From positions 1-53,900 of the IMG/VR virus record IMGVR_UViG_3300030329_005258: a stretch of DNA of 53,900 nucleotides, one strand, 5' to 3'. The notes below the pieces were generated by a model that was not told the origin of the DNA, made no database searches, and saw only the letters and a program-made list of their open reading frames with translations. Positions 21,409 through 52,560 of this stretch are shown here, in pieces. The position numbers and the translations under genes were made by a program. Positions within the stretch are counted from its first letter, which is position 1, and each line of letters starts with the position of its first letter. Source of the DNA: a virus.

Positions 21409-24400
21409 ATGTCTAAAAGTTTAAAAGAACTTTTTTCACAAAAAGCAAGTCAAAAAATTACAGGCGTATCTTCAAGTTTAAAACAACTTGGAGCAAAGAT
21501 CGAATCTGCTGATTATCTAAAAGTCAATAAGATTTTTAGAAATCGTGTGTATCCTCACGTCGATTTTTCAAAGCCCGATAAATGGGTTCGTTTTGGTTCT
21601 GCTAAAAAATATTATGAAGACGCTGTAAAAAACGTTTATGAATCATATCCTTATGATGGTTCTGAGAAAGAAAAATTAGAATGGCACAATTCTTCCTCTT
21701 TCTTTGAAAACTATGTCTTTGACAAGGAATACCCGAGAACAACCGGCTATGTAGGATTCCCAGGCTCGTCGTTTAGTTCAGCCGGATCCGGCTCTTATGG
21801 AACCCCTTCAAATAATGAATATATTCTTGTTACTGGTTCTATAAACAAAGATAATATTTATAATGCATCAAAAAATAGAACAGATAATCTTATTTTTGAC
21901 CTTTCAAAAGATGGGGCAACTGTAGAATTTTGGCTCAAGAAAGACGCTTGGTTAGGTGATTCTAAAACAAAGCGAGAAGTCATATTTGATCTATGGAATC
22001 AACAACCAAAAGCTTCAGCAGCTTATGGTCGTCTTCGTATTGAGATGGATTCAACTAGCGCAGATACTGTTTTTCTAATTTCTGCAGTGTCGGGTACTTC
22101 TGGAGTAAAAATAGCGCCAATTGGTACTTCGGGTTCGCATGGAGCAGCCTTTACAACAGCAAAAGTTGCCGACAGCAAGTGGCACCACTATGCGTTTACA
22201 TTTAAAAATGTTTCATCAAACGTACAGGCTGAAATGTATTACGATGGCGAATTTGTTGAATCGATTACAACAGGCTCTAATATTAATGGCGTTTCTGGCT
22301 CAATCGCATGGTCTGGATATACTAACAAACCAGTCGTCGCGACAATCGGATCTCTAGTATATAGAACTGCTTTTGATGCTGATTCAATTGCAAAAATTGG
22401 TCATGGTAAATTAAGTGGATCTATTGATGAATTCCGATATTGGAAAACATTAAGAACTGCTAAACAAATTGGATCAAATTATTTCGGACAAGTTGGTGGA
22501 GGAGTCAATAGTGATGATGCAAACACTTCGCTAGGTTTATATTATAAATTTAATGAAGGTATGAGCGGGATTTCAACTATAGATGATATTATATTAGATT
22601 ATTCCGGCCGCGTTGCTAATGGTAAGTATGTAGGTTTCGTTTCTGGTACTTATCAACGAAATACTGGTTCTGCGATGGTTTTATCTGGCAAAGCAAAATC
22701 AGAATTTGAAGATCCTATAATTTACAAGGCTCACCCAAAAGTAACAAATTATTATAATACAAAAATAAATTCAGGATCGGTTTATGACCATCAAAACCCA
22801 TCCAGTATTTATAATACGTTCCCTTCATGGATAACAGAAGAAGACAATTACGGTACTTTGTATAATTTAAGTCAGATTATTGCCAGTTATTTTGATAACT
22901 TATATTTGCAAATTAGAGAGCTACCAAAGATTAAAAATATTCATTATCCAAGTGGTAGTGAACAACCATATCCGTTTGCAAATTATTTATTGCAAGATAA
23001 AGGGATGTTTCTGGGCGAAATCTTTAATGATTCCAGTTTATTAGAAGACTATAAAAACCAATCTGAAGATTTTAATTTTAAAGAGAAACTAACGAACGTT
23101 AAAAATAGAATATATCAAAATATCTATAACAATCTTGAATATATCTATAAATCCAAAGGTACAGAAAAGTCCATACGAGCAATGTTGCGTTCAATGGGTC
23201 TATCTGACGACTTAGTTAAGATCAATTACTACGGTAACAATCTAGAATTCGAATTTAAAGATAATTTTAGATCATCGACTGTCAAAAAGAGGATTCTTAA
23301 TATAACTACGGGAAGTGCAACAGCCTCGATATATCAAGATTCTCAAAAATTTGATGATAATGATACAAATCAAAACGATAACGCACTTTCTTATTTGAAA
23401 GGTGGTGAAATCCTTAAATTCATTCCTTATACTTTAGAAGCAAACATATTCTTTCCAAAGAAATTTAAAGAAGGAACAAAGTTTTATTCCGGTATTCATT
23501 ATACCTCTTCTCTTTTTGGTATGCATACCGTTGATACATCAGGTATGGGCGCACACACTACGACTTGGGATAAATCCGGATTTGATGGTACGCATGCTTC
23601 CGCGGCTGACGCAATTGATATGAGCGGCTACCAGGCAGCCGGCGATCCTTCTACTAAATTTAACATAACTATTCCTGTTGCTGCTGGTGGATCAAATACT
23701 GCAATTACAATTAAATTTGATATATCGTCCGCCGGTTCTCCAACAAGCGCCGGCTCTGATCACATCACTATCGGAACAGCCGGCTCAAGCGACACTGATA
23801 ATGCAGCCCTTGTTATAAAAGCAATAAACGGCACAACCGATAGCAGAATTACATATGGTAATGGTTCAGGTGATGGTTCGTCTGGTACAGGCGTTCAGGG
23901 CATCACCGCCACCGCCGGTACTGCAGGTACGAAAGTTACCCTTACAATAGACGATGGTGGTACAGTTGGCAATATCAGCAGCGCTATAGCTCATGGCGCA
24001 GGAACTGTAAATCTTGTTGATGTAACAGATTTTACTGGCGGTGCGGTAGTTTCTTGGATTGATTATGCCAATACCCGTGTATTCGTTTCGCGACCAACGG
24101 CTTCACATTTAAAAGATTCAGGGTATGCTAGGTTCCATCTTGTAGCTGGCCATAATTCAATTGTTAATATGTCGAGTTCTTGGTTTGCTGATGTATATGA
24201 CAATCGCCATTGGAATGTCAATGTAAGACTGCGACCAAAGAACGATTCAGTTCACTTTTCCGTTGCAAATATGAATGTCTACAAAAGCCACGAATATGAA
24301 ATGGAATTCCATGGAGCCACTACAAAACTTGGTGAGGTTGATCAAGAATTCCATCTTACCAAAACGCTAACTTATGATCAAGCAACAGCCTTCCTTACGA

Positions 24401-27400
24401 GTTCTAAAAAAATATATGGCGGTGCCCATAGAACTAACTTTACTGGCTCTGTGATTTCCAGAACAGATAACAAAATGACATCATTGCGCTATTGGTTTAG
24501 TTATTTGAACAAAGAAGAGTTGCGATCACACGTCAAGGATATTAAAAATTATGGAGTTAATCATCCATATAAAAATGCAATTCTGCATTTAACAGGCGTC
24601 AGTTTATTAGACACAAAAGGTTACTTAAATACACTTTCTGGAACGTATATTCCGAAAATCAAAACTTTGGGGTTACATTGGAATTTTGAAAACGTGACGG
24701 GTTCCGACCCAGCCGGCCAGTTTATAATAAAAGACTTTTCTTCTGGCTCTGCTCTTTCTGAAACTTGGTTCCAATCGGCACCAACAGGCAATTATGGGCC
24801 ATTCGGTGAATATATAGATAGATATTATCCTGGCTTGGGACACTCTTTCTTTCCCGATGACAACGCAGCTGTTATTGAGGATTACGTGTATACCGCAAAG
24901 CAACAACTTCCGGAAGTTCTTAGCAGTGCAGACCAAATTGAGATTCGCAATTTCGACGATGATATCTTTACGCGCTCTTCGCGCCCGATGTCATATTTCG
25001 CTGCAATTGAAAAGAGCCCATATCAGATAGTTTCTGATGAAATGCTTGATATATTCGCCACTATGGTCGATTTTAACGACATTGTAGGCGCTCCCGTCAA
25101 CAAATATAGGCAAGAGTACAAAGAGCTTAATAAACTCCGTGAGCTATTCTTCCAGAGGGTTAAAAGAACAACTGATTTTGATAAATTCCTTGAGTTTTAT
25201 AAGTGGGTTGACTTTACTATTCATCGTATGTTACAAGATTTAATACCTGTTTCTGCCAATGTCTCTAGTGATATTAAAACTATATTAGAAAGTCATATTT
25301 TGGAAAGAAATAAGTATCAACACCGATATCCTGGGTTTAAAGCAATAAAAAATGACCCAGAAGGCACAATTGAAGTTATCAATAAGTATGCTAAATCTGG
25401 GTATTTAGATGCTGACGTTAGAAAACATACTGCCATTCAGAAATGGGCTGGAATATCAGATAACGTTGATTACGTAACAATTTTTAACGGTGGATTAGGC
25501 GGATATAGGAGCATTGAACACAGCGTTGACTCAACAACGAAAAAATTGGATGTTAATCGTGGAGTATTCAAAAGTATATACAGGGTAATTGACGATAGCA
25601 CCGGCGGCACCTCCACCGAAATTGACACAGCAAGAGAGAAGATAAGAAAATCTGTTCTCAAGAATGTTACGAAACAAACATTTGAGCCAATTGTCAGAGC
25701 AGGCGTAGACGTTGCAATCCGAAACCAGAACAATCAACATCTCAATAAGCGTATCAACTACATAAAGCAAACTTTCCCATTTAAAAATGAAGGGACAGAT
25801 GATTATATGTTGATTGAATCATCTCAGATCACATCAACGGCCTCAATTACCACTCCTGAGAACCCCCGTCGACAGATAAGTCCTGGTAAACAACGGCTGG
25901 CATTTAAAGCTTCTGTAATGCGTTATGACAAAACAGATGGCGTTGTGGGGGTCGAAGATGACAGCCTAAAAGGAGATTATGTTGCTCCATTTACTTTGTA
26001 TACATACGCCTCTACAGGTTCGCTTTCGGGATCAGCAGTAGATACTCTTTTTGAATCTGGTCATCAATTTACAAATTTACATGCGGACTTAATAGATCAA
26101 ACTGGAGAAGTATCTTTACAAGGCCCCTTCACGGAAAAACATGTCGGCGGAATGGCCCACAGGCATACAGATTTAAATACGAATGTTAGTGGCGCTATAT
26201 TAGATACTGAAGATACTAGAGCAGAAGCCTGGAGAATACGCTTTGGAAATGAAGGTAATTCTGCAACAGCAACTGACGCAATTGATATGGATGGATATCA
26301 GGCCGTTGGTGATCCTTCTAGTAAATTCAACATAACTATACCAGTTGTAGTGGGCGGGTCAAATACTACAATCACAATTAAGTTCGACATATCATCTGCT
26401 AGTTCTCCCACTAGCGCGGGCTCTAATCACATTACTATCGGAACAGCCGGCTCTGGTGACTCTGACAATGCTGCTCTTGTTATAAAAGCGATTAATGGTG
26501 AAACTGATGGCAGAATTACGTATGGCAACGCTTCTGGTGAAGGCTCTTCTGGCACTGGTATTCAAGGTATTACTGCATCGGCTGGCAGCACAGGTACAAA
26601 AGTTACTCTCACGATAGATCTTGGTGGTACATCAGGCAATATTAGCAGTGCTATAGCTCATGGCGCAGGAACTGTAAATCTTGTTGATGTAACAGATTTT
26701 TCTGGTGGAACCGACGCGCAGACGGCCAAAATATATGGTCCTGCTGCCGACGAAAACGCCGCAAAAGCTATTCACAAGCCAAGAGTAACGTTCTTTAGAG
26801 AAGGAAGGACAAAAAGACCGGTTAACATACGAAATATCGAAACGACGTCTTCTGTGAAGAATGGCCTGACAGTGGAAGGTAATTTCTATAAAAATTATGA
26901 AGTCGTTCAGACGGCAGGCGGAGATATTAATAATTTGTGGTTTGTTCACAATTCTGGCGCAATCGCAGCAACTGGAACTATTGAATCAATTGCTGTTTCT
27001 GGCGCAGTGGATTTTGAAATTGAAGATCGCACGTATTTGATAGATGGTAAAACAAGACAAAAAACTGTTATATATGAAAGATTCTCAGCCCCTGGTGGAC
27101 CAGAGGTAAATTCTTTGGGTTATTTAGATATCGCTTCTCGTCAATATAGTGTATACAATTCTTTAAATTACAGAAATAGTTTGGTTCGTGATGTTCTAAA
27201 CAGAAAATTCCTCAAGAATCACGAAGGGAAATATAGTGGTTCAGCTGAGTTTACACGATTTGCTGGCTCCCCGGGGTTTGATGCCATTCTTGGCGCTTCT
27301 TCGGTAATCGGCTCATTCCATGATACACATAATAATAGGGCGTGGAGACTTCAGAAATACGACAAGACGAAAAGTTATAAGCCTGGCACGGAAAGAGTCA

Positions 27401-30400
27401 CAACTGGTGCTATTTTTAATAATGCTTTTGTTTCTACGCCTATTCCGGCGTCTGATAGACAATATTCGTGGATAACGAAATCACTTAATACACACTTTCC
27501 TCATAATCTAGTTTCAGCATCTGCAGCCGACCTCGCAGCAGGAAATACTTCGCCGGCACTAGTACAAGACGCTTTGGGATATGCGCCATATGATGGTATT
27601 CTTTCAAGTTCGGCTAAAGGATATTATTCAGCTATTGAATTTGTAAGTGCAAGCTTGCATGTAGCTTTTTCTAGTAGTAAACTGAACGGCTGGAATTTTG
27701 GTATTCCCAAAAGTGTCATTTATAATAATAACGAATCGAATTATGGAATCGGCGCCGGAAATTTAGCTGTTCTCGGAGGTCCTGGCCGCAATATCTTGTT
27801 TACCGACTTTACTAACTTAAACCATATAGTTTATGAACCAATTTCATCAAGTGCTCACGTATTGGGTTATGAGGCGATGGATGTTCAAAACATTGATACT
27901 GGCAGTACCGCCCAAGGACATGTGAATTATTTTAATAAGGTATTCTTGTCTGGTGCTCAGCCGCAACTTCATATTGAAGCACTTCACGGAAGAAAAGGTT
28001 ACGGAGAGGAGGTATATACAGGCCAAGGTGCTTGGCAGCGCAATAAGCCAGGCGAAATTGCAGTATTGAACGCGATATTACTGAATAGAAATGGGCCATA
28101 TGGATATCCGACTTGGAAACAAATAAGAACAGGACAACATCCAATTGCTCGTTATTTAAGAAGAAACAACATCATAGATGTTCAAAGGAATCCTAAAACT
28201 TATATAGATGAAAATCGCAATATTTTTAAAGAGAGGTTTAATCCAAATTTTGATTCCTATACTGTTCCTCCTGTTGCAGAAAATCGCCGTCGCCCACTCA
28301 AATTTACTTTCTTGACAAAACCAGATAAAGCGAAAGACATTGATGCAGTTGAGGCTGGTGATCACGCGTATCAAACCAGTCCTTCATTAACCCCTGTTTT
28401 TGGTGATTTAATAGCATTAGAGGCAACCTATGGAAATAATTACGTATATTTCCCACAAGAAAAATTAAATAAGCAAGCCGGCGTCAAAGTAGACAAAAAA
28501 AGCACAGCATATGATGATTTGACGGGCATGTACCTCTATGGAGGCTTGGGTGATCAAAGCGAAATTAGCAGATTCGTGCGGTTAGATATAACTGAGAAAA
28601 TTTTCCCTAGAGAGGAGAATGAGTTTCTTTCAAAAACATATACCAGAAAGAACTTTCTTGTTGAATATTGGAATAGAGATCCTTCTTTGAGAAGAGGAAC
28701 TGGGTCTTTTAGACCTAAAGCTTTTGGAAAATTTACATGGGGCTGGGATGCATATAGTGTCGCAGGCTCTAATGAATATTCAATGCATACAGGAAGTATG
28801 TGGCCACTTGACGGCCCAAAAGATTTTACTAGTGCTTCAAGCCCGGAATGGGGGGCCAAGGTGGATAGTCCAACATCATACCCATGGATGATTGGCGCCG
28901 GCGAACTTCAGTGGATTCACAATGCGTCTTATGGCTCTTCCGGGATGCAGAATCGAAATTTTCTTGGCCCTGTATATATGAGACCAGCCTATGAAATAAC
29001 TGTTGACGATACTTATGGCCTATCGCCTCCAGGCTCTGGACATAGAAGGATTTTGGTTGCCGGCATGCCTAATTGGGACACCCCCGCCGGCTCGGCTATG
29101 ATTTCCGGTAGATCAAAAGAACCATTCCCGGAAGGGACATATGAACAGTGGTCAGAAAAGCTACGTCGACAGGGGCAAGGGTTTTCGCTTATACCAGAAT
29201 TCAGAATAAGTGAGCATATTGATACATATCTTAGCAATGTGGGAATTTTTAGATTTCTTGCAGATAATGAAGGATTTTTGACAGTAACCGGCTCGTCGGT
29301 TAATAATAGTGCGCAATGTGCTTTTGCTAAAGAATATCTACATACTGATTTTATTAAGCAATTTCATATTATTGATGAGCATAAAGAAACACCATTTGTT
29401 AATGGTAATAAAGTACAACGCGCAGAGGCATCTTCTTTAACTTTGAAATGTCAAGCGTTGATGAAATTCTTGCCTTATGAAGGTTTCCATCCTGCAGTCC
29501 GGACAGTACAATTGGCCAATTTGTTTTCGGCTTCTTATTTTCCATCTTCTACTGGGAGTGCAATCGGCACTGACGGTAGCAGCATAATCTCTTTTCTACC
29601 TGACCGACTTTCGCAATATAGACCAATTTTCCAACCTTATTTTTCACCAGGAATTTTGTATAATTCTATCAAAGCTGGAATAGCTGTTGATTATCCTGTT
29701 TTTCTTACCGACCACAAATTCAACAATACCTCTTCTTTGGGTGTGATCAGGATTACGGGCTCTAGAATGAACGACACTCAAGATATGTATAAAGGCCCCA
29801 ATAACAGCGGCGAAGCTAAAAATAAACAATACGGAGAATGGACTTTAGGGCGCCCAAGAGTTAAGGATAATTTTGACATGCGCTTGCCGTTTGAATCTTT
29901 ACTAGATCCAGCAGAAGCTATACTGGGTAAGAATTTAACAACTGGAGAACCAGAGAGTTCATCTTCAATAAGCCTTTGGTTAAGTTATGGACGACTTACA
30001 GCCTCGATACGTCAACCTCCTGTTGATCCGAGATATAAAATGGCAATGCATAATTTTATAGCCGAATCTCAAAATCTCTTCTGTGAAAAACAAATTATTA
30101 AATCAGATATTAGTGATCTACATCCTGATTTTGGTGTTATGTCGGGCGCCGCTCCTTATTCAATGTATGTTGTATTAAAGAAAGGTCATAAAAATATGAC
30201 ACCGTATAGTAGGCATTCTGCTTTCGGGTATCCCGTGGCGTCTGGATTTACAACAACAAACGCTGCTACAACCAATGCGCAGATACCAATTCCAGGCGCT
30301 GAAGCCGGAGGAGTGTCTCCGCTTCCCAAACTTGAGGCACTTTCTGCTAGTTACGCTGCTTTTACTCCACCTTACGAAGATATAGATTTTAAATCCGGTG

Positions 30401-31977
30401 AGCCTCTTTATAGCGGATCATTAGTTAAGATAAGTTTTTCTCCTAAACATCATGATCCAACGCTAGATAATGCTCGCTTCGACCTTCAGACAATTTTGTC
30501 CGGAGCGCAAGTAACTTATGCCAGAAATGGTTTTATCCCCAATGCTGCAGCCGGAATCAGCGCCATGGCAGGAACTTCCAGTATTGATAATGCAATGCAG
30601 ATTTCTGCTTCACTCAATCTTTTCTCAGTCGTAGAAGACTACCAAAAATCAGCATTACAAACACCCGCCGGTCTTATTGGAGGGGCACCAGATTTAGATC
30701 CAGATAAAGCCGGCCGAAAATGGGTTATTGAGCCTAAATGGCAGGTGCCAATATATAATTATAGAGGTTATAAAGAGTTTGCAGATGGCCAAGCTCTTGC
30801 TGGTGTTTCCGGTCAAGAAGTTTCGCAAGGTGGTATGATTGTAACAATTCCAACATTCGGAACAGGAACTATGACATTTGGCCAATGGCACCAATATGGA
30901 ATACCAGGAAATGTCGACGAAACAATAGGTATTGATATTGTTAACGTTCCCGGCGAAAAATCTTTAGCTGACGCAGTAGGACTAAGACAGGGGTGGTATC
31001 CATTATCGCGAATTGCTGAAAAGAGAGAAATACGTGAAGCAGTAGTGGCTATACCTTTTAGATTAATCAGGGGCAAGAAAATGTTCTTTAGGTTTGAAAG
31101 AGATAGAATTAATAAAGCCTTATATACAGAATTAATTGCAGATCCAGAAGAAAAAAGAAAACAAATCAGAGAAGTCGGCACGGAAGTCGTTGATATGGTT
31201 AAAAAAATGGAAAGGTATGTCATACCTCCTCAGTTTGATTTCTTGACTTTCGATGGCAAAAAAGAAAAAGAAGAGGTCAAGCCATTGGCTATGTATATTT
31301 TTGAATTCAGACATCAATTAACAGATACTGACTTATCAGATATGTGGCAAAATCTTGTACCGGACTTGGCCTATGACATCCCAGATGTACAAGAATCAGT
31401 GGTTAGGATAACACACCCACTGCTTACAGAGGCCATCAAGAAAGCACAAATCAGCGCGTCACCGATCGGATTATCACAAAATCAAGGCGATATAAAAAAG
31501 AAACTTGGATTTATTGAACTTCATGAAGATTTGCGCTGGATGGTTTTCAAAGTTAAACAAAAAGCAGCTACAAACTATTATCGTGAATTACGAAAAGACC
31601 GCGGCGACATTACTTTACAATTAGAAGAAAACACAAGACGATTTAATGGCAGAACGCGTGAAGAACACGATAATGCCAAACAATTTAAAACAAAAGAAGT
31701 TGTCCCATTATATAGTTATAACTGGCCGTATGACTTTTTTACGATGATTGAGTTAGTTAAAATGGACGCGACAATAAGACTTACACCACAAGATGTTGAA
31801 GAAACAAAACCAGATGCACTAATTGGAGGCCCCGGCGCGGGCTCTGCAAATCCGGTACAACAAGCACCAGCTGCCGCCGCAGCACCGCCCCCCGCAGCAG
31901 CCCCAGCCGCAAGCCCAGAAGGTGGTAATATTCTTGGCTTGGGTGGAATTGACCTCGGCCCCGCTGGAGACATATAG
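21409..31977 (+). CDS. Giant virion protein with LamG-like domain and duplicated module, 3,522 aa
   Basis: One 10.6-kb frame. Residues about 160-385 form a LamG/concanavalin A-like jellyroll: GATVEFWLKK, later SKWHHYAFTFKN, then MYYDGEFV and GSIDEFRYWKTLRTAKQI, the classical order of this lectin-like fold. A 145-residue Gly/Ser/Ala-rich module occurs twice, at about 734-878 and 1623-1767. Other regions are long and unrecognised. The C-terminus has an Ala/Pro-rich flexible stretch (residues about 3480-3510) and ends GGIDLGPAGDI. The location after wedge genes and the lectin-like domain point to a large baseplate-associated surface-binding or fibre-network protein. No catalytic site is seen. 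The start ATG has AGGTG upstream. Confidence 0.75.
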   Translation: MSKSLKELFSQKASQKITGVSSSLKQLGAKIESADYLKVNKIFRNRVYPHVDFSKPDKWVRFGSAKKYYEDAVKNVYESYPYDGSEKEKLEWHNSSSFFENYVFDKEYPRTTGYVGFPGSSFSSAGSGSYGTPSNNEYILVTGSINKDNIYNASKNRTDNLIFDLSKDGATVEFWLKKDAWLGDSKTKREVIFDLWNQQPKASAAYGRLRIEMDSTSADTVFLISAVSGTSGVKIAPIGTSGSHGAAFTTAKVADSKWHHYAFTFKNVSSNVQAEMYYDGEFVESITTGSNINGVSGSIAWSGYTNKPVVATIGSLVYRTAFDADSIAKIGHGKLSGSIDEFRYWKTLRTAKQIGSNYFGQVGGGVNSDDANTSLGLYYKFNEGMSGISTIDDIILDYSGRVANGKYVGFVSGTYQRNTGSAMVLSGKAKSEFEDPIIYKAHPKVTNYYNTKINSGSVYDHQNPSSIYNTFPSWITEEDNYGTLYNLSQIIASYFDNLYLQIRELPKIKNIHYPSGSEQPYPFANYLLQDKGMFLGEIFNDSSLLEDYKNQSEDFNFKEKLTNVKNRIYQNIYNNLEYIYKSKGTEKSIRAMLRSMGLSDDLVKINYYGNNLEFEFKDNFRSSTVKKRILNITTGSATASIYQDSQKFDDNDTNQNDNALSYLKGGEILKFIPYTLEANIFFPKKFKEGTKFYSGIHYTSSLFGMHTVDTSGMGAHTTTWDKSGFDGTHASAADAIDMSGYQAAGDPSTKFNITIPVAAGGSNTAITIKFDISSAGSPTSAGSDHITIGTAGSSDTDNAALVIKAINGTTDSRITYGNGSGDGSSGTGVQGITATAGTAGTKVTLTIDDGGTVGNISSAIAHGAGTVNLVDVTDFTGGAVVSWIDYANTRVFVSRPTASHLKDSGYARFHLVAGHNSIVNMSSSWFADVYDNRHWNVNVRLRPKNDSVHFSVANMNVYKSHEYEMEFHGATTKLGEVDQEFHLTKTLTYDQATAFLTSSKKIYGGAHRTNFTGSVISRTDNKMTSLRYWFSYLNKEELRSHVKDIKNYGVNHPYKNAILHLTGVSLLDTKGYLNTLSGTYIPKIKTLGLHWNFENVTGSDPAGQFIIKDFSSGSALSETWFQSAPTGNYGPFGEYIDRYYPGLGHSFFPDDNAAVIEDYVYTAKQQLPEVLSSADQIEIRNFDDDIFTRSSRPMSYFAAIEKSPYQIVSDEMLDIFATMVDFNDIVGAPVNKYRQEYKELNKLRELFFQRVKRTTDFDKFLEFYKWVDFTIHRMLQDLIPVSANVSSDIKTILESHILERNKYQHRYPGFKAIKNDPEGTIEVINKYAKSGYLDADVRKHTAIQKWAGISDNVDYVTIFNGGLGGYRSIEHSVDSTTKKLDVNRGVFKSIYRVIDDSTGGTSTEIDTAREKIRKSVLKNVTKQTFEPIVRAGVDVAIRNQNNQHLNKRINYIKQTFPFKNEGTDDYMLIESSQITSTASITTPENPRRQISPGKQRLAFKASVMRYDKTDGVVGVEDDSLKGDYVAPFTLYTYASTGSLSGSAVDTLFESGHQFTNLHADLIDQTGEVSLQGPFTEKHVGGMAHRHTDLNTNVSGAILDTEDTRAEAWRIRFGNEGNSATATDAIDMDGYQAVGDPSSKFNITIPVVVGGSNTTITIKFDISSASSPTSAGSNHITIGTAGSGDSDNAALVIKAINGETDGRITYGNASGEGSSGTGIQGITASAGSTGTKVTLTIDLGGTSGNISSAIAHGAGTVNLVDVTDFSGGTDAQTAKIYGPAADENAAKAIHKPRVTFFREGRTKRPVNIRNIETTSSVKNGLTVEGNFYKNYEVVQTAGGDINNLWFVHNSGAIAATGTIESIAVSGAVDFEIEDRTYLIDGKTRQKTVIYERFSAPGGPEVNSLGYLDIASRQYSVYNSLNYRNSLVRDVLNRKFLKNHEGKYSGSAEFTRFAGSPGFDAILGASSVIGSFHDTHNNRAWRLQKYDKTKSYKPGTERVTTGAIFNNAFVSTPIPASDRQYSWITKSLNTHFPHNLVSASAADLAAGNTSPALVQDALGYAPYDGILSSSAKGYYSAIEFVSASLHVAFSSSKLNGWNFGIPKSVIYNNNESNYGIGAGNLAVLGGPGRNILFTDFTNLNHIVYEPISSSAHVLGYEAMDVQNIDTGSTAQGHVNYFNKVFLSGAQPQLHIEALHGRKGYGEEVYTGQGAWQRNKPGEIAVLNAILLNRNGPYGYPTWKQIRTGQHPIARYLRRNNIIDVQRNPKTYIDENRNIFKERFNPNFDSYTVPPVAENRRRPLKFTFLTKPDKAKDIDAVEAGDHAYQTSPSLTPVFGDLIALEATYGNNYVYFPQEKLNKQAGVKVDKKSTAYDDLTGMYLYGGLGDQSEISRFVRLDITEKIFPREENEFLSKTYTRKNFLVEYWNRDPSLRRGTGSFRPKAFGKFTWGWDAYSVAGSNEYSMHTGSMWPLDGPKDFTSASSPEWGAKVDSPTSYPWMIGAGELQWIHNASYGSSGMQNRNFLGPVYMRPAYEITVDDTYGLSPPGSGHRRILVAGMPNWDTPAGSAMISGRSKEPFPEGTYEQWSEKLRRQGQGFSLIPEFRISEHIDTYLSNVGIFRFLADNEGFLTVTGSSVNNSAQCAFAKEYLHTDFIKQFHIIDEHKETPFVNGNKVQRAEASSLTLKCQALMKFLPYEGFHPAVRTVQLANLFSASYFPSSTGSAIGTDGSSIISFLPDRLSQYRPIFQPYFSPGILYNSIKAGIAVDYPVFLTDHKFNNTSSLGVIRITGSRMNDTQDMYKGPNNSGEAKNKQYGEWTLGRPRVKDNFDMRLPFESLLDPAEAILGKNLTTGEPESSSSISLWLSYGRLTASIRQPPVDPRYKMAMHNFIAESQNLFCEKQIIKSDISDLHPDFGVMSGAAPYSMYVVLKKGHKNMTPYSRHSAFGYPVASGFTTTNAATTNAQIPIPGAEAGGVSPLPKLEALSASYAAFTPPYEDIDFKSGEPLYSGSLVKISFSPKHHDPTLDNARFDLQTILSGAQVTYARNGFIPNAAAGISAMAGTSSIDNAMQISASLNLFSVVEDYQKSALQTPAGLIGGAPDLDPDKAGRKWVIEPKWQVPIYNYRGYKEFADGQALAGVSGQEVSQGGMIVTIPTFGTGTMTFGQWHQYGIPGNVDETIGIDIVNVPGEKSLADAVGLRQGWYPLSRIAEKREIREAVVAIPFRLIRGKKMFFRFERDRINKALYTELIADPEEKRKQIREVGTEVVDMVKKMERYVIPPQFDFLTFDGKKEKEEVKPLAMYIFEFRHQLTDTDLSDMWQNLVPDLAYDIPDVQESVVRITHPLLTEAIKKAQISASPIGLSQNQGDIKKKLGFIELHEDLRWMVFKVKQKAATNYYRELRKDRGDITLQLEENTRRFNGRTREEHDNAKQFKTKEVVPLYSYNWPYDFFTMIELVKMDATIRLTPQDVEETKPDALIGGPGAGSANPVQQAPAAAAAPPPAAAPAASPEGGNILGLGGIDLGPAGDI
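23608..24042 (+). repeat. Duplicated 145-aa module, copy 1
   Basis: In-frame coding repeat within the 3,522-aa protein. It begins DAIDMSGYQAAGDPS, includes FNITIPVAAGG and ITIKFDISSAGSPTSAG, and ends VNLVDVTDFTGG. The second copy at 26275-26709 matches along its full length with scattered substitutions. The sequence before (GFDGTHASA) and after (VSWIDYANTRVF) is unlike that around copy 2, so the module behaves as an inserted unit. Confidence 0.9.
26275..26709 (+). repeat. Duplicated 145-aa module, copy 2
   Basis: Second copy of the module, beginning DAIDMDGYQAVGDPS and ending VNLVDVTDFSGG. The start-to-start distance is 2,667 bases (889 codons). The final 51 bases before the Thr/Ser difference (26652-26702) are identical at DNA level to copy 1, while upstream parts differ at many third positions. 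Confidence 0.9.
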
Positions 31978-42924: not shown

Positions 42925-44316
42925 ATGCCCTTTTATAGATTCAACAAGAATGATAAATTTATAAATATTATAAAAGCCTTTCCCAAGAGCCAGTTTACAA
43001 CTTGGAGCGGGTCTGTTTTTTATAATAACTCTAATCAGTCTGCTTCAAATACTAATGTTATCGACGGGCATATTAGTTTATATGAAATGAATGTTAATAG
43101 ATCTGGCGAGGTTGGATCGGGTCTGATATTTCCTTATAAAATTAAGGATACGGGCGATTTAACAGGCTTTGGAAATGTCGGATCAGATACATATTTTGTT
43201 GGATATGAGCAGGGAGATCTCATAAGTGGTTCTTACCCTTTGACGGCTTCTATTTTTAGAGAGCTGTTCAATTATACGACAAATGATTATTCTGTTGTTT
43301 ATGATAAAACCCAACCCGGGGCTAATAGCACACCTCTGGACGCACTTCCCAATGGAACGTATCCGCAAGCAGTTGTTACTGGATCCCAACAAGAAACAAA
43401 CGTAAAGATAGAAGAATTTTTTACATATAAAGGCCGCCGTCGACGCCACCTGGAAGCATTAAAAAATACGCTAAACCACTACACTTATTTGAGTCCTCAT
43501 TATGCCTATAGTTCTTCTTTAGAATATGCCAACCGCGATTTGAGCAAAGTTAAGGTTAATATGATAAGTATTCCTTCTTTGTTTTTTGGAAGTGAAATTA
43601 GAAAGGGAACCGTAAATTTAAAATTTTATGTAACTGGCACACTTGCTGGTGAATTGGTGGATATTAAAAGAAATGGTGAGCTTGTACAGGTTGGTCCGAC
43701 AGGAAGCGCCTTTAGTGGAACAACAGCGGGTATTGTCTTATATAATGAGGGGTTTATAATATTAACTGGGACTCATAATTTAGATTCAGCCCATTCCGGT
43801 GAAGATTATGTTGGACTCGGAGATGGCGGAGCCGACAATTATGTTAGCTGGCTTAATTACGGAGCGTCAATGCCAACAACCACTTTTTACAATTCAAACT
43901 TGACAAAATATTTATGGAAAAATCAAAAGGTCTACGCCCCTTCTTCTAGTTTTGAATTGAGCTTTAAGGGTACAAATAGAGTGCCAACGGTTACAATGTT
44001 TGCTCATGCCGAAAAAGGCATGCTAAATCACTCCAACAATATAACATATGTTGATTATAGAAGTTTATCATCATCTGCTGATTTTGGACCAAATACCAAC
44101 AAGGGCAGGTATTTAGAACACGATATGGTTAAAATTAAAAATACTGTTAAGAGTAGATTCAAGAACCATGCTGAAGATTTTGAAAAGCAAACTTTTATTT
44201 CAAAAATTGGCATTTATGATAAAGATAGAAACTTGATTGCAGTTGCAAAGTTAGCTAATCCTATTAAGAAAAAAGAAGATAGGGATATAACTTTTAAAAT
44301 GAAATTGGATATGTAA
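42925..44316 (+). CDS. Structural protein, paralogue of the preceding gene, 463 aa
   Basis: Tandem paralogue of the 387-aa protein (shared core and C-terminus: FGSEIRKGTVNLKFYV, then SKIGIYDKDRNLIAVAKLA). It is about 75 residues longer, mainly in the N-terminal half. There is a basic cluster GRRRRH at about residue 170. The product is likely a virion component interacting with the neighbouring proteins; its exact role is unknown. AAAGGGG precedes the ATG. The stop overlaps the start of the resolvase gene by one base (TAATG), linking the structural block to the DNA-metabolism genes. Confidence 0.65.
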   Translation: MPFYRFNKNDKFINIIKAFPKSQFTTWSGSVFYNNSNQSASNTNVIDGHISLYEMNVNRSGEVGSGLIFPYKIKDTGDLTGFGNVGSDTYFVGYEQGDLISGSYPLTASIFRELFNYTTNDYSVVYDKTQPGANSTPLDALPNGTYPQAVVTGSQQETNVKIEEFFTYKGRRRRHLEALKNTLNHYTYLSPHYAYSSSLEYANRDLSKVKVNMISIPSLFFGSEIRKGTVNLKFYVTGTLAGELVDIKRNGELVQVGPTGSAFSGTTAGIVLYNEGFIILTGTHNLDSAHSGEDYVGLGDGGADNYVSWLNYGASMPTTTFYNSNLTKYLWKNQKVYAPSSSFELSFKGTNRVPTVTMFAHAEKGMLNHSNNITYVDYRSLSSSADFGPNTNKGRYLEHDMVKIKNTVKSRFKNHAEDFEKQTFISKIGIYDKDRNLIAVAKLANPIKKKEDRDITFKMKLDM

Positions 44317-44843
44317 TGATATTGGGACTTGACGTGAGCACAAGCGTCACGGGTGCAACAATCCTCGACAAAGAAGGGAATGTTGTTTATAATGAAGCCT
44401 GGGACACTAGAAAATTTAAAAATTTCTTTGAGAAGGTAAAGCATGTTGAAAAATATATTAACCAGCTTCGTAGTGACGGTTACGGAATCGAAAGAGTATA
44501 TATCGAGCAATCTCTCCAAAGTTTCAGATCTGGATTCTCGTCGGCTAAAACTTTGTCAACTCTCGCTAGTTTTAATGGGGTGGTGTCATGGCTGGTATAT
44601 AGAATATTGCAGGCAGAACCAGAATACATAGCGGCAACTAGTGCAAGAAAGACTTGTGGATTAACAGTTTCCAGGGGTCAGAAAGGAAAAGAGGTTGTTA
44701 TGAAATATGTACTTGACAATGTGCCAGAAGTTATTATATCTTATACGAGGAATAATAATATCAAGCCAGAGTGTTACGATAAGGCAGATAGCTGGATCAT
44801 AGCAAAAGCTGGTTATAATCTATGTCAGAATCAAAAAAAGTAG
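44316..44843 (+). CDS. RuvC-like Holliday junction resolvase, 175 aa
   Basis: The RNase H-fold resolvase signature is complete. The N-terminal strand MILGLDVSTSVTG carries the first catalytic Asp (D6), VYIEQSLQSF carries E64, and the C-terminal helix CYDKADSWIIAKAG carries D155 and D158. This fits the RuvC/poxvirus A22-like family of metal-dependent endonucleases that cleave four-way junctions. In the phage it would resolve recombination and replication intermediates before packaging, the job done in T4 by the unrelated endonuclease VII (gp49). Length is typical of RuvC (about 170 aa). The gene overlaps the primase gene by 22 bases, so the two are co-translated. Confidence 0.82.
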   Translation: MILGLDVSTSVTGATILDKEGNVVYNEAWDTRKFKNFFEKVKHVEKYINQLRSDGYGIERVYIEQSLQSFRSGFSSAKTLSTLASFNGVVSWLVYRILQAEPEYIAATSARKTCGLTVSRGQKGKEVVMKYVLDNVPEVIISYTRNNNIKPECYDKADSWIIAKAGYNLCQNQKK

Positions 44844-45772
44844 AAATCTTAAGAAAGGTATTGGGATCGTTTTATCCCTCTGGAGAAGAGCGTCTTTTTT
44901 TCTGTCCTAAATGCTCACATCATAAACGCAAGCTTTCTGCAAACATTGAAAAGGATGTTTTTAAATGCTGGGTTTGCGACTACCATGGTCGTTCTTTGCG
45001 AAAACTAATTCGTAATTATGGTTCATTCAAAGACCTTACATCTTGGTCTGAGCTATCTAACGACATCGATGTTTCTTCTTTTGGTGAAAATCTTTTTGAT
45101 GAGGAAGAAGAAATATATGAACAGGTTGTTGATTTACCAAAAGAGTTTGTGTCACTGGCGAATAAGAGCCTTCCAATGTCAGCACTTATGGCCAAGAATT
45201 ATTTGATTAGTAGAGGATTAACTCGTCAGGACTTTGTTCGTTGGAAAATTGGCTATTGCACTGAAGGAGAATATAAAGAGCGCATTATTGTGCCGTCTTT
45301 CGGTTTGACCGGACGTCCGAACTATTTTATTGCTCGTTCGTACACTAATAACTGGAAAAAATATATGAACCCTCCAGCCGGAAGGAACATAATATTTAAT
45401 CATTTATTTGTTGATTTCGATGAAGATTTAATACTCGTCGAAGGAGTTTTCGATGCAATAATTGCAGGGCCCAATTCGCTTCCTATTCTTGGTTCAACGC
45501 TTAGGGAAGAATCTAAATTGTTTCAAGAAGTTGTAAGGAATGATTCAACAGTTTATTTGGCCCTTGATCCAGATGCAGAAAAGAAGTCCATGCGCCTGAT
45601 CAAAAGCCTTTTAAGTTATGGCATAGAAATACATAAAGTCAACATAGCGCCCTACAAGGACGTTGCAGAAATGTCAAAAGAAGAATTTCAGAAACGTAAA
45701 ACACAATCTGTTGTTATGGATTCTAACAACTATTTATTAGAGACATTGAATGCAAATTTGATGTCTATTTAG
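44822..45772 (+). CDS. DNA primase, DnaG-type zinc finger and TOPRIM
   Basis: An N-terminal zinc-binding domain is visible: CPKC at 28-31, then CWVC at 49-52, with a HH pair at 33-34. The TOPRIM catalytic domain follows: ILVEGVFDAI with the metal-binding Glu near residue 206, and LALDPDAEKKS with D-x-D near 249-251. The enzyme makes RNA primers for lagging-strand synthesis with the replicative helicase (T4 gp61 with gp41). At 316 aa it is close to T4 gp61 (342 aa). No helicase domain is fused. It starts inside the resolvase gene. The following helicase gene is not in this window. Confidence 0.87.
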   Translation: MSESKKVEILRKVLGSFYPSGEERLFFCPKCSHHKRKLSANIEKDVFKCWVCDYHGRSLRKLIRNYGSFKDLTSWSELSNDIDVSSFGENLFDEEEEIYEQVVDLPKEFVSLANKSLPMSALMAKNYLISRGLTRQDFVRWKIGYCTEGEYKERIIVPSFGLTGRPNYFIARSYTNNWKKYMNPPAGRNIIFNHLFVDFDEDLILVEGVFDAIIAGPNSLPILGSTLREESKLFQEVVRNDSTVYLALDPDAEKKSMRLIKSLLSYGIEIHKVNIAPYKDVAEMSKEEFQKRKTQSVVMDSNNYLLETLNANLMSI

Positions 45773-46450: not shown

Positions 46451-49400
46451 ATGAAATTTGCACACATAGCGGACACGCACATCCGTAACTTAAAATATCA
46501 TAAAGAATATCGTGCGGTCTTTAAGCAAATGTATGAAAAGCTTAGAGAACTGGAAGTCGACTACATTATTCATTGTGGCGACATTGCTCATACAAAGACA
46601 CAGATCAGTCCCGAATTCGTTGACATGTGTAGTGACTTTTTTAGGAGTTTGGCGGAGATCGCCCCTACATATGTCATATTGGGGAACCACGATGGCAACT
46701 TAAGAAATTCATATCGTCAAGACGCATTAACACCGATTGCTAATGCGTTGGATAATTCGAATTTAAAGTTGATTAAAGACTCTGGGGAGGTTAATCTCGA
46801 TGACACTTTTACGCTTAATATCTTATCTGTTTTTGATGCTGACAATTGGATGGATCCATCCGATGATTCCAAGGTTAACATTGCTCTTTACCACGGCTCC
46901 ATATCGAATTGTCAAACTGATGCTGGATGGATTATGGAGTATGGCGAAAACGATATATCTATTTTTGATAGATTTGATTACGCTTTTCTTGGTGACATTC
47001 ATAAAACAAACCAACGGCTTGATAAAGACGGCCGAATCCGATATTGTGGCTCCACTGTACAACAAAACCATGGAGAGACAGACGATAAAGGTTTTCTCGT
47101 ATGGGACATTAAAGATAAAGAAACGTTCTCAGTAGAACATCACATACTGGCCAATCCTAAGCCATTTAAGACAATTGTACTTACTCCAAAGGGCAGGATC
47201 CCAAAAGGTACTGAAATTCCGTCTAAGGCCCGTTTGCGGCTGGTTTCTGAGAATACCCTACCTTTGGATGCAATTCGCAAAGCAATTGACGTCGCAAAAG
47301 TTCGCTTTAAGCCAGAAGCTATAACATATTTATGCAGATCTGACGGAACTCGCGGTCTAGACGGCGATTCAAATTCTTTGATACAAGAAGACTTGCGAGA
47401 TATTGCCGTACAAGAAAGTCTGATAGAAGAATATATAAAAGACTTTCAAGTTGAAGATGACGTATTGCAAAAAGTTTATGATCTAAACAAGAAGTATAAT
47501 ACTCTAGTAGAAGAAGAGGAAGAGGTAAGCAGAAACGTTAACTGGAAACTTAAACGTATTGAGTGGGACAACTTATTTAATTACGGTGAAGGCAATAGCG
47601 TTGATTTTCAAGACTTGAACGGTGTTGTTGGAATTCTAGGAAAGAATTTCTCTGGCAAATCCAGTATTATCGACAGTCTTATGTACACACTTTATAACAC
47701 GACGTCGAAAAACAACAGAAGAAATTATAATGTTATCAATCAAAATAAAGACGAGTGTCGTGGATGTGTACAAATCGATATTGGCACTCGGACTTATAAG
47801 ATTGAAAGAACTAGCAAGAAATATGTTAAAAAACTGAAAGGCAAGGTTACCAACGAAGCAAAGACTGATGTTGAATTTACTGTTTATGACAACGCAACCG
47901 GTGTGGAGCAAGAATTAAATGGAACAACCAGAAATGAAACAGATAAAAATATCAGAAAGATTTTCGGCACTGTTGATGACTTCTTAATGACTTCCATGGC
48001 TTCTCAGCTTGGATCATTGAATTTTATTAGCGAAGGTTCAACCAAAAGAAAAGAGATTCTTGCTAAGTTTCTTGACCTAGAGATTTTTGATAAGAAATTT
48101 AAAATGGCTAAAGAATCCTCTGCGGATATTAAAGGTATGATACGCAGGATGGAAAAGCGCGATTTTGTACAAGAAGCAAAAGATGCTCGAACCGAGCTTG
48201 CGAGGAGCGAAACGGAAACCTCTTTAAAGCAAAAAGAATGCAAGAAGCTAGCTAACAAAATCAACAAGATGAATGACGATCTATCTGAATGCAGCAAACT
48301 AATATCTTCAATTCCAACGGAAATTATTGATATTGTTAGAGTTAATGAAAAGCTACAAGATCTGATAAATAAAGTTGATATTTTAGAATCGGATAGAGTT
48401 GGCTTTGAAGCAGAATTGACTGAAAAAGAGCAGTTTTACGACAAGATTGCTGCTTTTGTTGCTGATTTCGACGTCGAGTCATTACAAGAAAAACAATCTT
48501 TAATCAAGGAACATAGGAGCAGTATTGTTGCATTTGAATCTGAAATAGAGACAGAAAGCACAAGGCTTAAGTTATTGAAAAAGAAGGTAAAATTGCTTGA
48601 TGAGGTGCCTTGCGGAGAGGAGTTTTCACACTGCAAGTTTATAAAAGACGCTTATACTGCAAAAAAGAATATCATCCCGGTGCAGGACATAATCGATAAA
48701 TTGAATACCAGAGCCTCTGAAACATCCAAGTCAATTTCTGACCTCAACCCGGACAAATTAGAGGATCATTTTGATAAATTTCAAAAGATTACTAAAAAGA
48801 AGAATGTAACTCTTAATGAAATCAATGAGTTAAAGCTGGAAATTGAAAAAACAAAGACGCATGTTCTTAGGTTCAACCAAGAAAGAGGAATCTTGGAGAC
48901 AAAGAAGCAGGAATATGAAGAGAATAAGGAAGCTATTGAAAATCTTGAAACCCTGTTGCAACAAAAAATGGACTTGGAAGATAAAATCGCTGAGTTTAGG
49001 AAGAAATATGAAACTTGCCAACAAGAGTCTATGGAGCTTTACAAGCAGAATGGATTCTTGGAGCAAACTTTGGAACAGGTAAAATTGGATGAACAAGAGT
49101 ATGAAGATTTAAACGCAGAGTTCACCGCATTTGACCTTTTCCAGCGTTGTATGCACTCTAATGGTATATCTTATGATATTATTAAAAAGCGCCTTCCTCT
49201 GATTAATGAAGAGATATCAAAGATCTTAACAAACATTGTTGATTTTGATATACTATTCGACAATGGTGAAAACAAACTTGATATTTTGATCAAACATCCG
49301 CGTTTTGAACCTCGTCCAATTGAGATGGGTTCAGGTGCGGAGAAGACGATATGTGCGATGGCCATTCGTTTAGCTCTTTTAAATGTTTCGACACTTCCCA

Positions 49401-49600
49401 AAGGCGATGTCTTTATTCTTGATGAACCTGGCACCGCTTTAGACGAAGATAATATGGAAGGTTTTGTAAGAATTCTAGATATGATTGGTACACAATTTAA
49501 AACTGTTTTATTGATTTCACACCTAGATAGTCTTAAGGATACCGTGGAACAACAAATTACAATTGACAAAATTGATGGGTACGCACACGTAAACCATTAA
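46451..49600 (+). CDS. Fused SbcD-SbcC (gp47-gp46) recombination nuclease, 1,049 aa
   Basis: Residues 1-350 are an Mre11/SbcD-like calcineurin phosphoesterase: ADTH (D8, H10), CGDIAH (D44), GNHD (N79, H80, D81), LYHGS (H148) and GDIHK (D182, H184). Then comes the ABC ATPase of Rad50/SbcC: Walker A GKNFSGKSS near 397-405, a long coiled coil about 560-930 with a hook CGEEFSHC (C721, C728), signature MGSGAEKT near 958-965, and Walker B VFILDEPGTALDED near 987. The two are one frame joined by a Glu-rich linker (near residue 355). In T4 they are separate (gp47 339 aa, gp46 560 aa). The complex processes DNA ends for recombination-dependent replication. GAGGG precedes the ATG. Confidence 0.9.
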   Translation: MKFAHIADTHIRNLKYHKEYRAVFKQMYEKLRELEVDYIIHCGDIAHTKTQISPEFVDMCSDFFRSLAEIAPTYVILGNHDGNLRNSYRQDALTPIANALDNSNLKLIKDSGEVNLDDTFTLNILSVFDADNWMDPSDDSKVNIALYHGSISNCQTDAGWIMEYGENDISIFDRFDYAFLGDIHKTNQRLDKDGRIRYCGSTVQQNHGETDDKGFLVWDIKDKETFSVEHHILANPKPFKTIVLTPKGRIPKGTEIPSKARLRLVSENTLPLDAIRKAIDVAKVRFKPEAITYLCRSDGTRGLDGDSNSLIQEDLRDIAVQESLIEEYIKDFQVEDDVLQKVYDLNKKYNTLVEEEEEVSRNVNWKLKRIEWDNLFNYGEGNSVDFQDLNGVVGILGKNFSGKSSIIDSLMYTLYNTTSKNNRRNYNVINQNKDECRGCVQIDIGTRTYKIERTSKKYVKKLKGKVTNEAKTDVEFTVYDNATGVEQELNGTTRNETDKNIRKIFGTVDDFLMTSMASQLGSLNFISEGSTKRKEILAKFLDLEIFDKKFKMAKESSADIKGMIRRMEKRDFVQEAKDARTELARSETETSLKQKECKKLANKINKMNDDLSECSKLISSIPTEIIDIVRVNEKLQDLINKVDILESDRVGFEAELTEKEQFYDKIAAFVADFDVESLQEKQSLIKEHRSSIVAFESEIETESTRLKLLKKKVKLLDEVPCGEEFSHCKFIKDAYTAKKNIIPVQDIIDKLNTRASETSKSISDLNPDKLEDHFDKFQKITKKKNVTLNEINELKLEIEKTKTHVLRFNQERGILETKKQEYEENKEAIENLETLLQQKMDLEDKIAEFRKKYETCQQESMELYKQNGFLEQTLEQVKLDEQEYEDLNAEFTAFDLFQRCMHSNGISYDIIKKRLPLINEEISKILTNIVDFDILFDNGENKLDILIKHPRFEPRPIEMGSGAEKTICAMAIRLALLNVSTLPKGDVFILDEPGTALDEDNMEGFVRILDMIGTQFKTVLLISHLDSLKDTVEQQITIDKIDGYAHVNH

Positions 49601-50694: not shown

Positions 50695-52560
50695 ATGGTT
50701 AAAAGATCTTCTATCGGCAATTTAAGTTTTGCGAAACTTAAAAAGATAATTCAGGAAAATTCAGCGGCTGGTGGGGGAGACGTCGATGAGGCTTTTAAGA
50801 CCATAACAATTGCTGAAGATGGCGGTACCGCCTCTGGAGACAGTAGTATTGTTGCGGATGCAGCAGAAGACTCCTTAACAATAAAAGCTGGATCTAATAT
50901 TACAATTACTGGCGACTCATCCGGAGATGCAATTACAATCGCTTCAGCTGCAGCTAGCAATCCTTCGTTTGTTTCTAGTTCCGGTGATCTTAATATCGTT
51001 GGTGAATCAACTCTAGAAAGTACATTAAACGTTAGCGGCGCAATATCCGGAGCAGTCGGCGCCGCGAGCCTTAATTACACATGGGGATCCGATGCAAACA
51101 ACCATCTTAACAAATCTGGCGGCGCAGAATTAAATGGAAACTTATATGTGTCTGGTACTTTTACTGCCGGTGCATTCAGTCCCTCGACGCTCACTGTATC
51201 CGGGGAGATTTCTGGATCCGACGTGCTTAATATTGTTGGAGCGGCAACTCTTGAGAGTACACTTGACGTTACAGGTGCTATAAATTCTGCAGCCGGCGTC
51301 TCTGGTTCTTCAATGAGTGCTTCATATGCTCATTTTAATAATTTAACTGTCAATGATGCCGGCACAAACACAGCAAAAATCCTTGGAACGGGTGAAATAT
51401 CTAGCTCTGGACCTCTCAATGTCGTCGGTGCCACAACTTTAGAAAGTACATTAAATGTAAGTGGTGCTATTTCAGGCGCAACCGGATTAGCTAGTCTTGC
51501 ATATGTATGGGGATCAGATGCAAATGGTATATTAAACAAGTCGTCAGGCGCAGAATTAAATGGAAACTTATATGTCAGTGGTTCAATTATATGCGGCTCA
51601 ACAGTCTTTGCTCCGGCTTTCGAGGTTGGCGCAGGAACTGAAAGTTCTATAGATGGTTCTACTGTTGGGTTTACATCAAAGAAACTTTTTCTTTTAGGAA
51701 ATGATAATAACGCAGCGACTGAGGATCTCGGCCTCCTCATGGAAAGGGCCGGCCCGAATAAAGGAATGATATTTGACGAGAGCGCAGAAGAATTTGCTTT
51801 TATTAATACAACAGATGATGAAACTGCATCGGGCGCCGTTAATATTGATAGCTATGTTTCGTTGCATGCCCTTTCTGGTACTTTTGATGGGGTTTTATCT
51901 AGTATTAAGTTTGTATCATCAGGTGAAATATCAGGATCCGGACCTCTTAATGTTGTTGGGGCGGCGACACTAGAAAATGTTTTACATGTATCAGGCGCTG
52001 TATCTGGTGCAACCAGCTTGGCAGGCTTAAATATAGTTTGGGGCTCAGATGCAGATGCTAAATTAAATAAAAGCGGAGGCGCGGAGCTTCCTGGTAATTT
52101 ATATGTTACTGGTACAATAATTGGTGCTGGGGATGTTGGGTTGGCTGCCCAATTTACAGCGTCACTAGGTGCTTATTTTGGCGGAAATGTAGGTGTCGGA
52201 GTATCTAACCCATCTTACGCAGTAGAGTTGCCAAACAATGCTAACGCATCAGGACAAGTTAAAGCTAATGGATTTGTTTCATACTCCTCAGAGAGATTTA
52301 AGGGAAATATTCAAACAATTCAAAGCCCTTTGGAGACGGTTGAAAAGTTGAGAGGCGTTTCTTTTAATTGGATAGAAAATGGCAAAAAAGAAATAGGGTT
52401 GATTGCAGAAGAGGTAAGTAAAGTATTGCCAGAAATCGTCTCTTTTGAAGATAACCGACCAGCTGCTCTTGATTATCCAAAATTAACTGCGTTGCTTATC
52501 GAATGTGTTAAAGAGCAACAAAGAAAAATAGAAATTATGGAAAAGAAATTAGACCTTTAA
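50695..52560 (+). CDS. Tail fibre with S74 intramolecular chaperone, 621 aa
   Basis: The body is Gly/Ser/Ala-rich with repeated units: GEISGS..LN(I/V)VGAATLE and WGSDA..LNKS.GAEL.GNLYV.G (three copies of the latter, at 51082, 51508 and 52039). The C-terminal 90 residues are a peptidase S74 chaperone domain. SSERFKGNIQ carries the catalytic Ser (S532) and Lys (K536), followed by ETVEKLRGVSFNW, then IGLIAEEVSKVLPEIV and the closing coiled coil. This domain trimerises fibre or spike proteins, then cleaves itself off. The N-terminus, MVKRSSIGNLSFAKLKKII, is a candidate virion-attachment helix. An AGAGGG ribosome-binding site precedes the ATG. The next gene shares repeats with it. Confidence 0.82.
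   Translation: MVKRSSIGNLSFAKLKKIIQENSAAGGGDVDEAFKTITIAEDGGTASGDSSIVADAAEDSLTIKAGSNITITGDSSGDAITIASAAASNPSFVSSSGDLNIVGESTLESTLNVSGAISGAVGAASLNYTWGSDANNHLNKSGGAELNGNLYVSGTFTAGAFSPSTLTVSGEISGSDVLNIVGAATLESTLDVTGAINSAAGVSGSSMSASYAHFNNLTVNDAGTNTAKILGTGEISSSGPLNVVGATTLESTLNVSGAISGATGLASLAYVWGSDANGILNKSSGAELNGNLYVSGSIICGSTVFAPAFEVGAGTESSIDGSTVGFTSKKLFLLGNDNNAATEDLGLLMERAGPNKGMIFDESAEEFAFINTTDDETASGAVNIDSYVSLHALSGTFDGVLSSIKFVSSGEISGSGPLNVVGAATLENVLHVSGAVSGATSLAGLNIVWGSDADAKLNKSGGAELPGNLYVTGTIIGAGDVGLAAQFTASLGAYFGGNVGVGVSNPSYAVELPNNANASGQVKANGFVSYSSERFKGNIQTIQSPLETVEKLRGVSFNWIENGKKEIGLIAEEVSKVLPEIVSFEDNRPAALDYPKLTALLIECVKEQQRKIEIMEKKLDL

Follow-up and report, generated by a model that had tools for sequence, protein, structure and literature searches.

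Known Mre11/Rad50 Fusions and Their Two-Gene Counterparts

Fusions of an Mre11-type nuclease with a Rad50-type ATPase are already known as a class. They were described in Mimivirus (R555) and in a Bacillus phage by Yoshida, Claverie and Ogata in 2011, who also proposed that the abundant marine homologues of R555 belong to phages (PMC3175470). In a tree built on a broader sample the fusions were not monophyletic (PMC3175470). Nothing further on phage Mre11/Rad50 fusions was found in the later open-access literature searched.

The window analyzed here (53,900 nucleotides) is part of a fragmentary virus record of 56.8 kb (IMG/VR IMGVR_UViG_3300030329_005258) from a marine T4-like phage. It carries an Mre11/SbcD-Rad50/SbcC fusion gene (46451-49600, stop codon included; the gene and all of its parts lie on the + strand). 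As in the R555 group, the Mre11 domain is N-terminal and the Rad50 domain C-terminal, the fusion, as judged from large relatives, is the only copy in the genome, and phage primases are found near the marine homologues; the GDxxH motif and the Asp in place of His206 are also common to both (H47 and D182 in the window protein; R555 residues from PMC3175470). Compared with R555 by its published description, the window protein is shorter (1,049 vs. 1,351 aa), with a shorter coiled coil and a CX6C apex, and this type of fusion occurs in T4-type tailed phages, not in an amoebal virus.

The same activities are expected from T4 gp47/gp46 and the split homologues of cyanophages, which follow the same order (Mre11, then Rad50) and likewise belong to T4-type phages with a gp23 capsid. 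In these systems, however, separate genes encode the two subunits, frequently with a small intervening ORF, and the proteins have a CXXC hook, a His at the GHxH position and the ATPase signature FSEGEK instead of the GSGAEK of the fusions. Escherichia coli SbcCD resembles the window protein in the fold of each half, but is encoded by two genes and has a far longer coiled coil (SbcC alone has 1,048 aa) and a CPLC hook. A tree calculated from 33 fused and 11 split sequences separates the two kinds by a branch with 96/93 support, which was recovered in 94% of bootstrap trees; this tree has long branches and a sample made up mostly of phages, and cannot overturn the published non-monophyly of the fusions (PMC3175470).

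Domain Organization and Conserved Motifs

The fusion gene starts with ATG and runs for 1,049 aa as a single open frame free of internal stop codons. Residues 1-185 match the Pfam family Metallophos (E 2.8e-14) and residues 371-611 match AAA_23 (E 1.5e-11), while PHROG profiles assign SbcD to residues 1-358 and SbcC to residues 311-1044; both halves proposed by the first-pass annotation were thus recovered by profile searches. Its observation that the phosphoesterase and ABC-ATPase motifs share a single stop-free frame, in contrast to the two-gene T4 gp47/gp46 and E. coli SbcD/SbcC, is confirmed by these data and by the comparison given above. The protein is a true fusion in which the Mre11/SbcD-type phosphoesterase and the Rad50/SbcC-type ATPase are both complete, and its enzyme assignment is strong.

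The N-terminal part, composed of the Mre11-type phosphoesterase and a capping region (approximately residues 1-300; 46451-47350), was delimited by Pfam, PHROG, conservation and a structural match to 7dog. It contains the complete motif set DxH, GD, GNHD, H and GxxH (D8-x-H10, G43-D44..H47, G78-N79-H80-D81, H148 and G181-D182-I-H184), with D182 as the one variant position. In the alignment of relatives the metal-site columns D8, H10, D44, H47, N79, H80, H148 and H184 are conserved, which suggests a working metal centre. Position 182, equivalent to His206 of Pyrococcus furiosus, is Asp in 188/188 fusion sequences, whereas His is found there in T4 gp47, in E. coli SbcD and in the majority of split homologues; the split Vibrio PG07 protein has Asp, like the fusions. 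Since Asp replaces His at this position, catalysis may differ.

The Rad50 half is composed of an N-terminal ATPase lobe (residues 364-543; 47540-48079; Pfam, conservation, model and structure match), an antiparallel coiled coil predicted in the AlphaFold2 model (residues 544-901; 48080-49153) and a C-terminal ATPase lobe (residues 906-1049; 49166-49597; conservation, model and structure match). The Rad50/SbcC motif set is complete: Walker A (GKNFSGKSS, 397-405), Q-loop (Q519), signature (S961-G962, reading GSGAEK, not LSGGE), Walker B and D-loop (FILDEPGTALD, 988-998; by conservation, Walker B covers 988-993 and the D-loop extends up to D998) and H-loop (H1024). Column conservation is complete (188/188 sequences) for H148, D182, H184, N399, K403, S404, Q519, C728, S961, G962, D991 and E992, and H1024 is retained in 187 of the 188.

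The apex of the coiled coil carries C721-x6-C728 (CGEEFSHC; 48611-48634) in place of the canonical CXXC zinc hook, which is absent from the window protein; the claim made here therefore extends to a fusion with a Rad50-type ATPase as one of its halves, and not to a canonical Rad50. Among the 188 aligned members, Cys occupies both the 721 and 728 columns in 157 and a CXXC is present in the other 31. The two apex cysteines are thus always kept, in one spacing or the other, and the second one (C728) is found in all 188. Of the 157 non-CXXC members, 141 have CX6C, and the five others whose motif was listed have CX7C. It is conceivable, though we put this forward tentatively, that in the clade of the window protein the CXXC hook has given way to an apex of other spacing (CX6-7C; PCGxxFxxCKFI) that binds metal or forms a disulphide, and that the arms join by a new hook geometry. 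Metal may be bound at the CX6C apex.

The Asp at the His206-equivalent and the non-CXXC apex, both unlike the characterized enzymes, could also point to a fused protein that has lost its nuclease function and clamps or bridges DNA in a structural, SMC-like role. We consider this unlikely, as practically every member retains the remaining metal-site residues of the phosphoesterase and the same Asp is present in the split PG07 protein.

The Inter-Domain Junction

In the AlphaFold2 model a helix-loop-helix (HLH; residues 318-332 and 336-355; 47402-47515) is followed by an 8-residue linker (residues 356-363; 47516-47539), and the first Rad50 strand begins at residue 364. These linker boundaries agree with conservation and with the starts of split homologues, since the split SbcC-like proteins mostly begin opposite fusion residues 363-365, directly past the linker. 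The junction is gap-free in close relatives, and E357, R361, N362 and W365 are invariant in 65 of them, which places the linker under protein-level constraint.

The first-pass annotation had pointed to a purine-rich stretch, GAAGAAGAGGAAGAG (47510-47524; codons Glu354-358), as the relic of a ribosome-binding site. The stretch is indeed present, but its reading as a relic did not withstand comparison with 81 relatives. At the aligned codons 354-361, 50/81 relatives have Shine-Dalgarno (SD)-like tetramers, whereas synonymous-codon shuffles would give 56.3 ± 4.0. Between residues 320 and 372, an internal ATG or GTG preceded by an SD-like motif was found in just 8/81 relatives, its position varying, and the set has no conserved internal start at the junction. 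The junction shows 1.04 times the codon identity expected, which is not above that of the rest of the gene and indicates no synonymous constraint. Given this lack of SD excess, the rare and scattered starts and the unraised codon identity, GAAGAAGAGGAAGAG is judged to be ordinary glutamate coding sequence.

The same data bear on whether two products are made, with a ribosome-binding site inside the gene, close to the junction, giving rise to a free Rad50 chain in addition to the fusion. The purine-rich stretch does lie approximately 15-30 nt upstream of the point at which split SbcC proteins start (363-365), and SD-like tetramers are frequent at the junction of the relatives; their number, however, shows zero excess over shuffled sequences, and neither the start codons nor the codon identity reveal a second initiation site. 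A second product is therefore very improbable.

Distribution of the Fusion Among Relatives

A scan of viral contigs (IMG/VR) identified 437 relatives. In the best 80 of these (53-88% identity, with five at 86-88%) the same unbroken fusion is present as one ORF with both domains in frame. In a wider set, a single-ORF fusion was found at 187/194 loci. Six of the remaining seven loci are truncated at a contig end or interrupted by an N run, and the last one (L110) is split within the Mre11 domain, away from the junction. A further profile-based scan gave at least 591 confirmed relatives among at least 600 stretches. The fusion is common to hundreds of aquatic phages and represents the usual arrangement across a large clade of phages; together with the description of the class in 2011 (PMC3175470), this does not bear out the initial view of the fusion as exceptional.

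Fusions are also present in cultured phages. Microcystis phage Mel-JY01, Tenacibaculum phages pT24 and PTm1, Chryseobacterium phage MA9V-1 and Sphingomonas phage PAU (gp288) encode both domains in one CDS, annotated just as AAA domain protein, DNA repair, DNA repair exonuclease, metallo-phosphoesterase or gp288. The Mel-JY01 protein shares 29% identity with the window protein, and the fusions of the Bacteroidetes phages and PAU (approximately 1,300 aa) are much more distant. Unlike in the window protein, the apex in the cultured phages is of the CXXC type.

The window comes from a fragmentary record, and a missed stop codon or frameshift could in principle have joined two genes during assembly. 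The junction, however, is gap-free in the same way in 80 independent contigs and in an isolate (Mel-JY01), and divergent forms of it occur in the cultured pT24, PTm1, MA9V-1 and PAU. The unbroken fusion in 80/80 of the closest contigs and at 187/194 wider loci excludes the missed stop or frameshift near 47500-47560 that the first-pass annotation had named as the result that would speak against it, and the chance of an assembly artefact is practically negligible.

Two relatives show interruptions of the Mre11 domain. In the 484-kb phage LR756508.1 (L083:3944-8169), an insert of approximately 0.9 kb, located after GDIHK and before GSLIQQN, interrupts the Mre11 active-site region of the fusion gene. 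It holds a 305-aa ORF with a match to a TnsA-like endonuclease, and an Rfam search of this insert found no intron. An alternative genetic code was considered for LR756508 and LR756501 and rejected as unneeded, as code 15 gave no longer frame. In L110 (L110:3313-6547) the same site contains a short insert and a frame change, which divide the gene into two ORFs (221 and 860 aa) that overlap; this split may reflect the remnant of an insert, a frameshift or a genuine fission.

Structure Model and the 2+2 Complex

The AlphaFold2 model of the fusion, calculated from an alignment of 65 sequences, has a mean pLDDT of 81.5 and a pTM of 0.49, at which the relative placement of the domains is unsure. Its N-terminal part (residues 1-296) superimposes on Staphylococcus aureus SbcD (7dog; Z 24.0, 3.4 Å, 272 aligned residues) and its C-terminal part (residues 365-1049) on E. 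coli SbcC/Rad50 (7yzo; Z 30.6, rmsd 3.6 Å, 353 aligned residues). The structure matches listed by VIA-align are mostly Rad50/SMC heads, and other families may exist beyond those listed. Over the full length, the best viral structure matches (BFVD) come from repair proteins of giant viruses (Tupanvirus, Harvfovirus, Yasminevirus and Catovirus), which have a similar architecture and 17-23% identity.

In the model, the HLH (residues 318-355) occupies the place of the Rad50-binding domain of Mre11. Coevolution analysis of 188 sequences gave 349-556 as the strongest HLH-Rad50 pair, and 26 of the top 100 such pairs map to the coiled-coil root, where approximately 23 would be expected from column share; this weak signal, showing no clear enrichment, is suggestive only of docking of the HLH on the coiled-coil root.

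A covalent 1:1 arrangement had been thought to constrain the usual two-plus-two complex. In the Thermotoga complex the C-terminus of Mre11 lies approximately 28 Å, or 9-12 residues, from the N-terminus of Rad50 (PMC3175470). This published geometry permits the 8-residue linker of the model, and a pair of fused chains could thus assemble into nearly the same complex; the expected constraint need not arise.

Carriers and Genomic Context

The records of large relatives served to characterize the carriers, the window's own record being a 56.8-kb fragment. In 12/12 large relatives (records of 177-267 kb) there was one SbcC and one SbcD match each, co-located, and all 12 encode a gp23 capsid protein and a RecA-family recombinase. 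A PolA-type polymerase was matched in 10/12, seven of them above the curated cut-off. The capsid protein of one 189-kb record, whose fusion is 87% identical to that of the window, is nearest to those of LR756508, Flavobacterium phage immuto, Mel-JY01 and RM378. Based on the gp23 likeness of this one relative, the carriers look like Far-T4-like phages, a group described by Roux et al. (PMC4360716). SbcC and SbcD profiles gave no match in RM378 and immuto, but the same profiles also miss the divergent pT24, and absence is not implied.

Upstream of the fusion gene, the window encodes a RuvC-like Holliday junction resolvase (44316-44843, + strand; phrog_159, E 5.2e-7) and a DnaG-like primase (44822-45772, + strand; phrog_47, E 3.8e-40). 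Among the 58 loci with at least 2.5 kb of upstream sequence, a relative of the primase is present in 57 and of the resolvase in 56. A primase gene also lies directly upstream in Mel-JY01 and LR756508. The apparently Far-T4-like carriers, the conserved primase-fusion neighbourhood and the CX6-7C apex of most members look new. The gene context and the near-genome-length contigs support the 2011 proposal that the abundant marine R555-like sequences are of phage, not giant-virus, origin, and point to Far-T4-like phages as their carriers.

A plasmid search gave no match to the fusion. In GTDB, 16 loci matched, all except one of them MAG contigs, many short. The one locus inspected in a large chromosome record, that of a WOR-3 MAG (CP070664.1; L119, one of the wider-set loci cut by an N run), contains the fusion gene, the primase and a resolvase-like gene in an N-joined stretch with phage genes; it looks like a phage contig stitched between N runs of a bacterial MAG chromosome, likely by contamination.

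Predicted Function

The product of the gene is very probably an active single-chain Mre11-Rad50 (SbcDC) enzyme from a tailed phage that looks Far-T4-like, and we infer its dimerization, activity and role as follows. Two copies of the fusion would most likely dimerize via their ATPase heads, together with Mre11 surfaces, into the usual M2R2 head bearing a coiled-coil arm. Whether Mre11 can reach DNA ends, hairpins or blocked ends would be controlled by the binding and hydrolysis of ATP. The homodimer would trim DNA ends and feed them to the phage RecA/UvsX-like recombinase and RuvC-like resolvase, with a role in recombination-dependent replication and repair. As a short natural single-chain Mre11-Rad50 (1,049 aa) of fixed stoichiometry, the protein would suit structural and single-molecule work.

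Other Genes of the Window

Two very large ORFs of 3,902 aa (5850-17558) and 3,522 aa (21409-31977) have no Pfam matches, and the former also has no PHROG match; they possibly encode tail or adhesin proteins. A gp6-like baseplate wedge gene (18031-19836) is located between them. Downstream of the fusion gene, a 621-aa repetitive protein (50695-52560) with a C-terminal Peptidase_S74 (endosialidase chaperone) domain, identified by Pfam, is a probable tail fibre.
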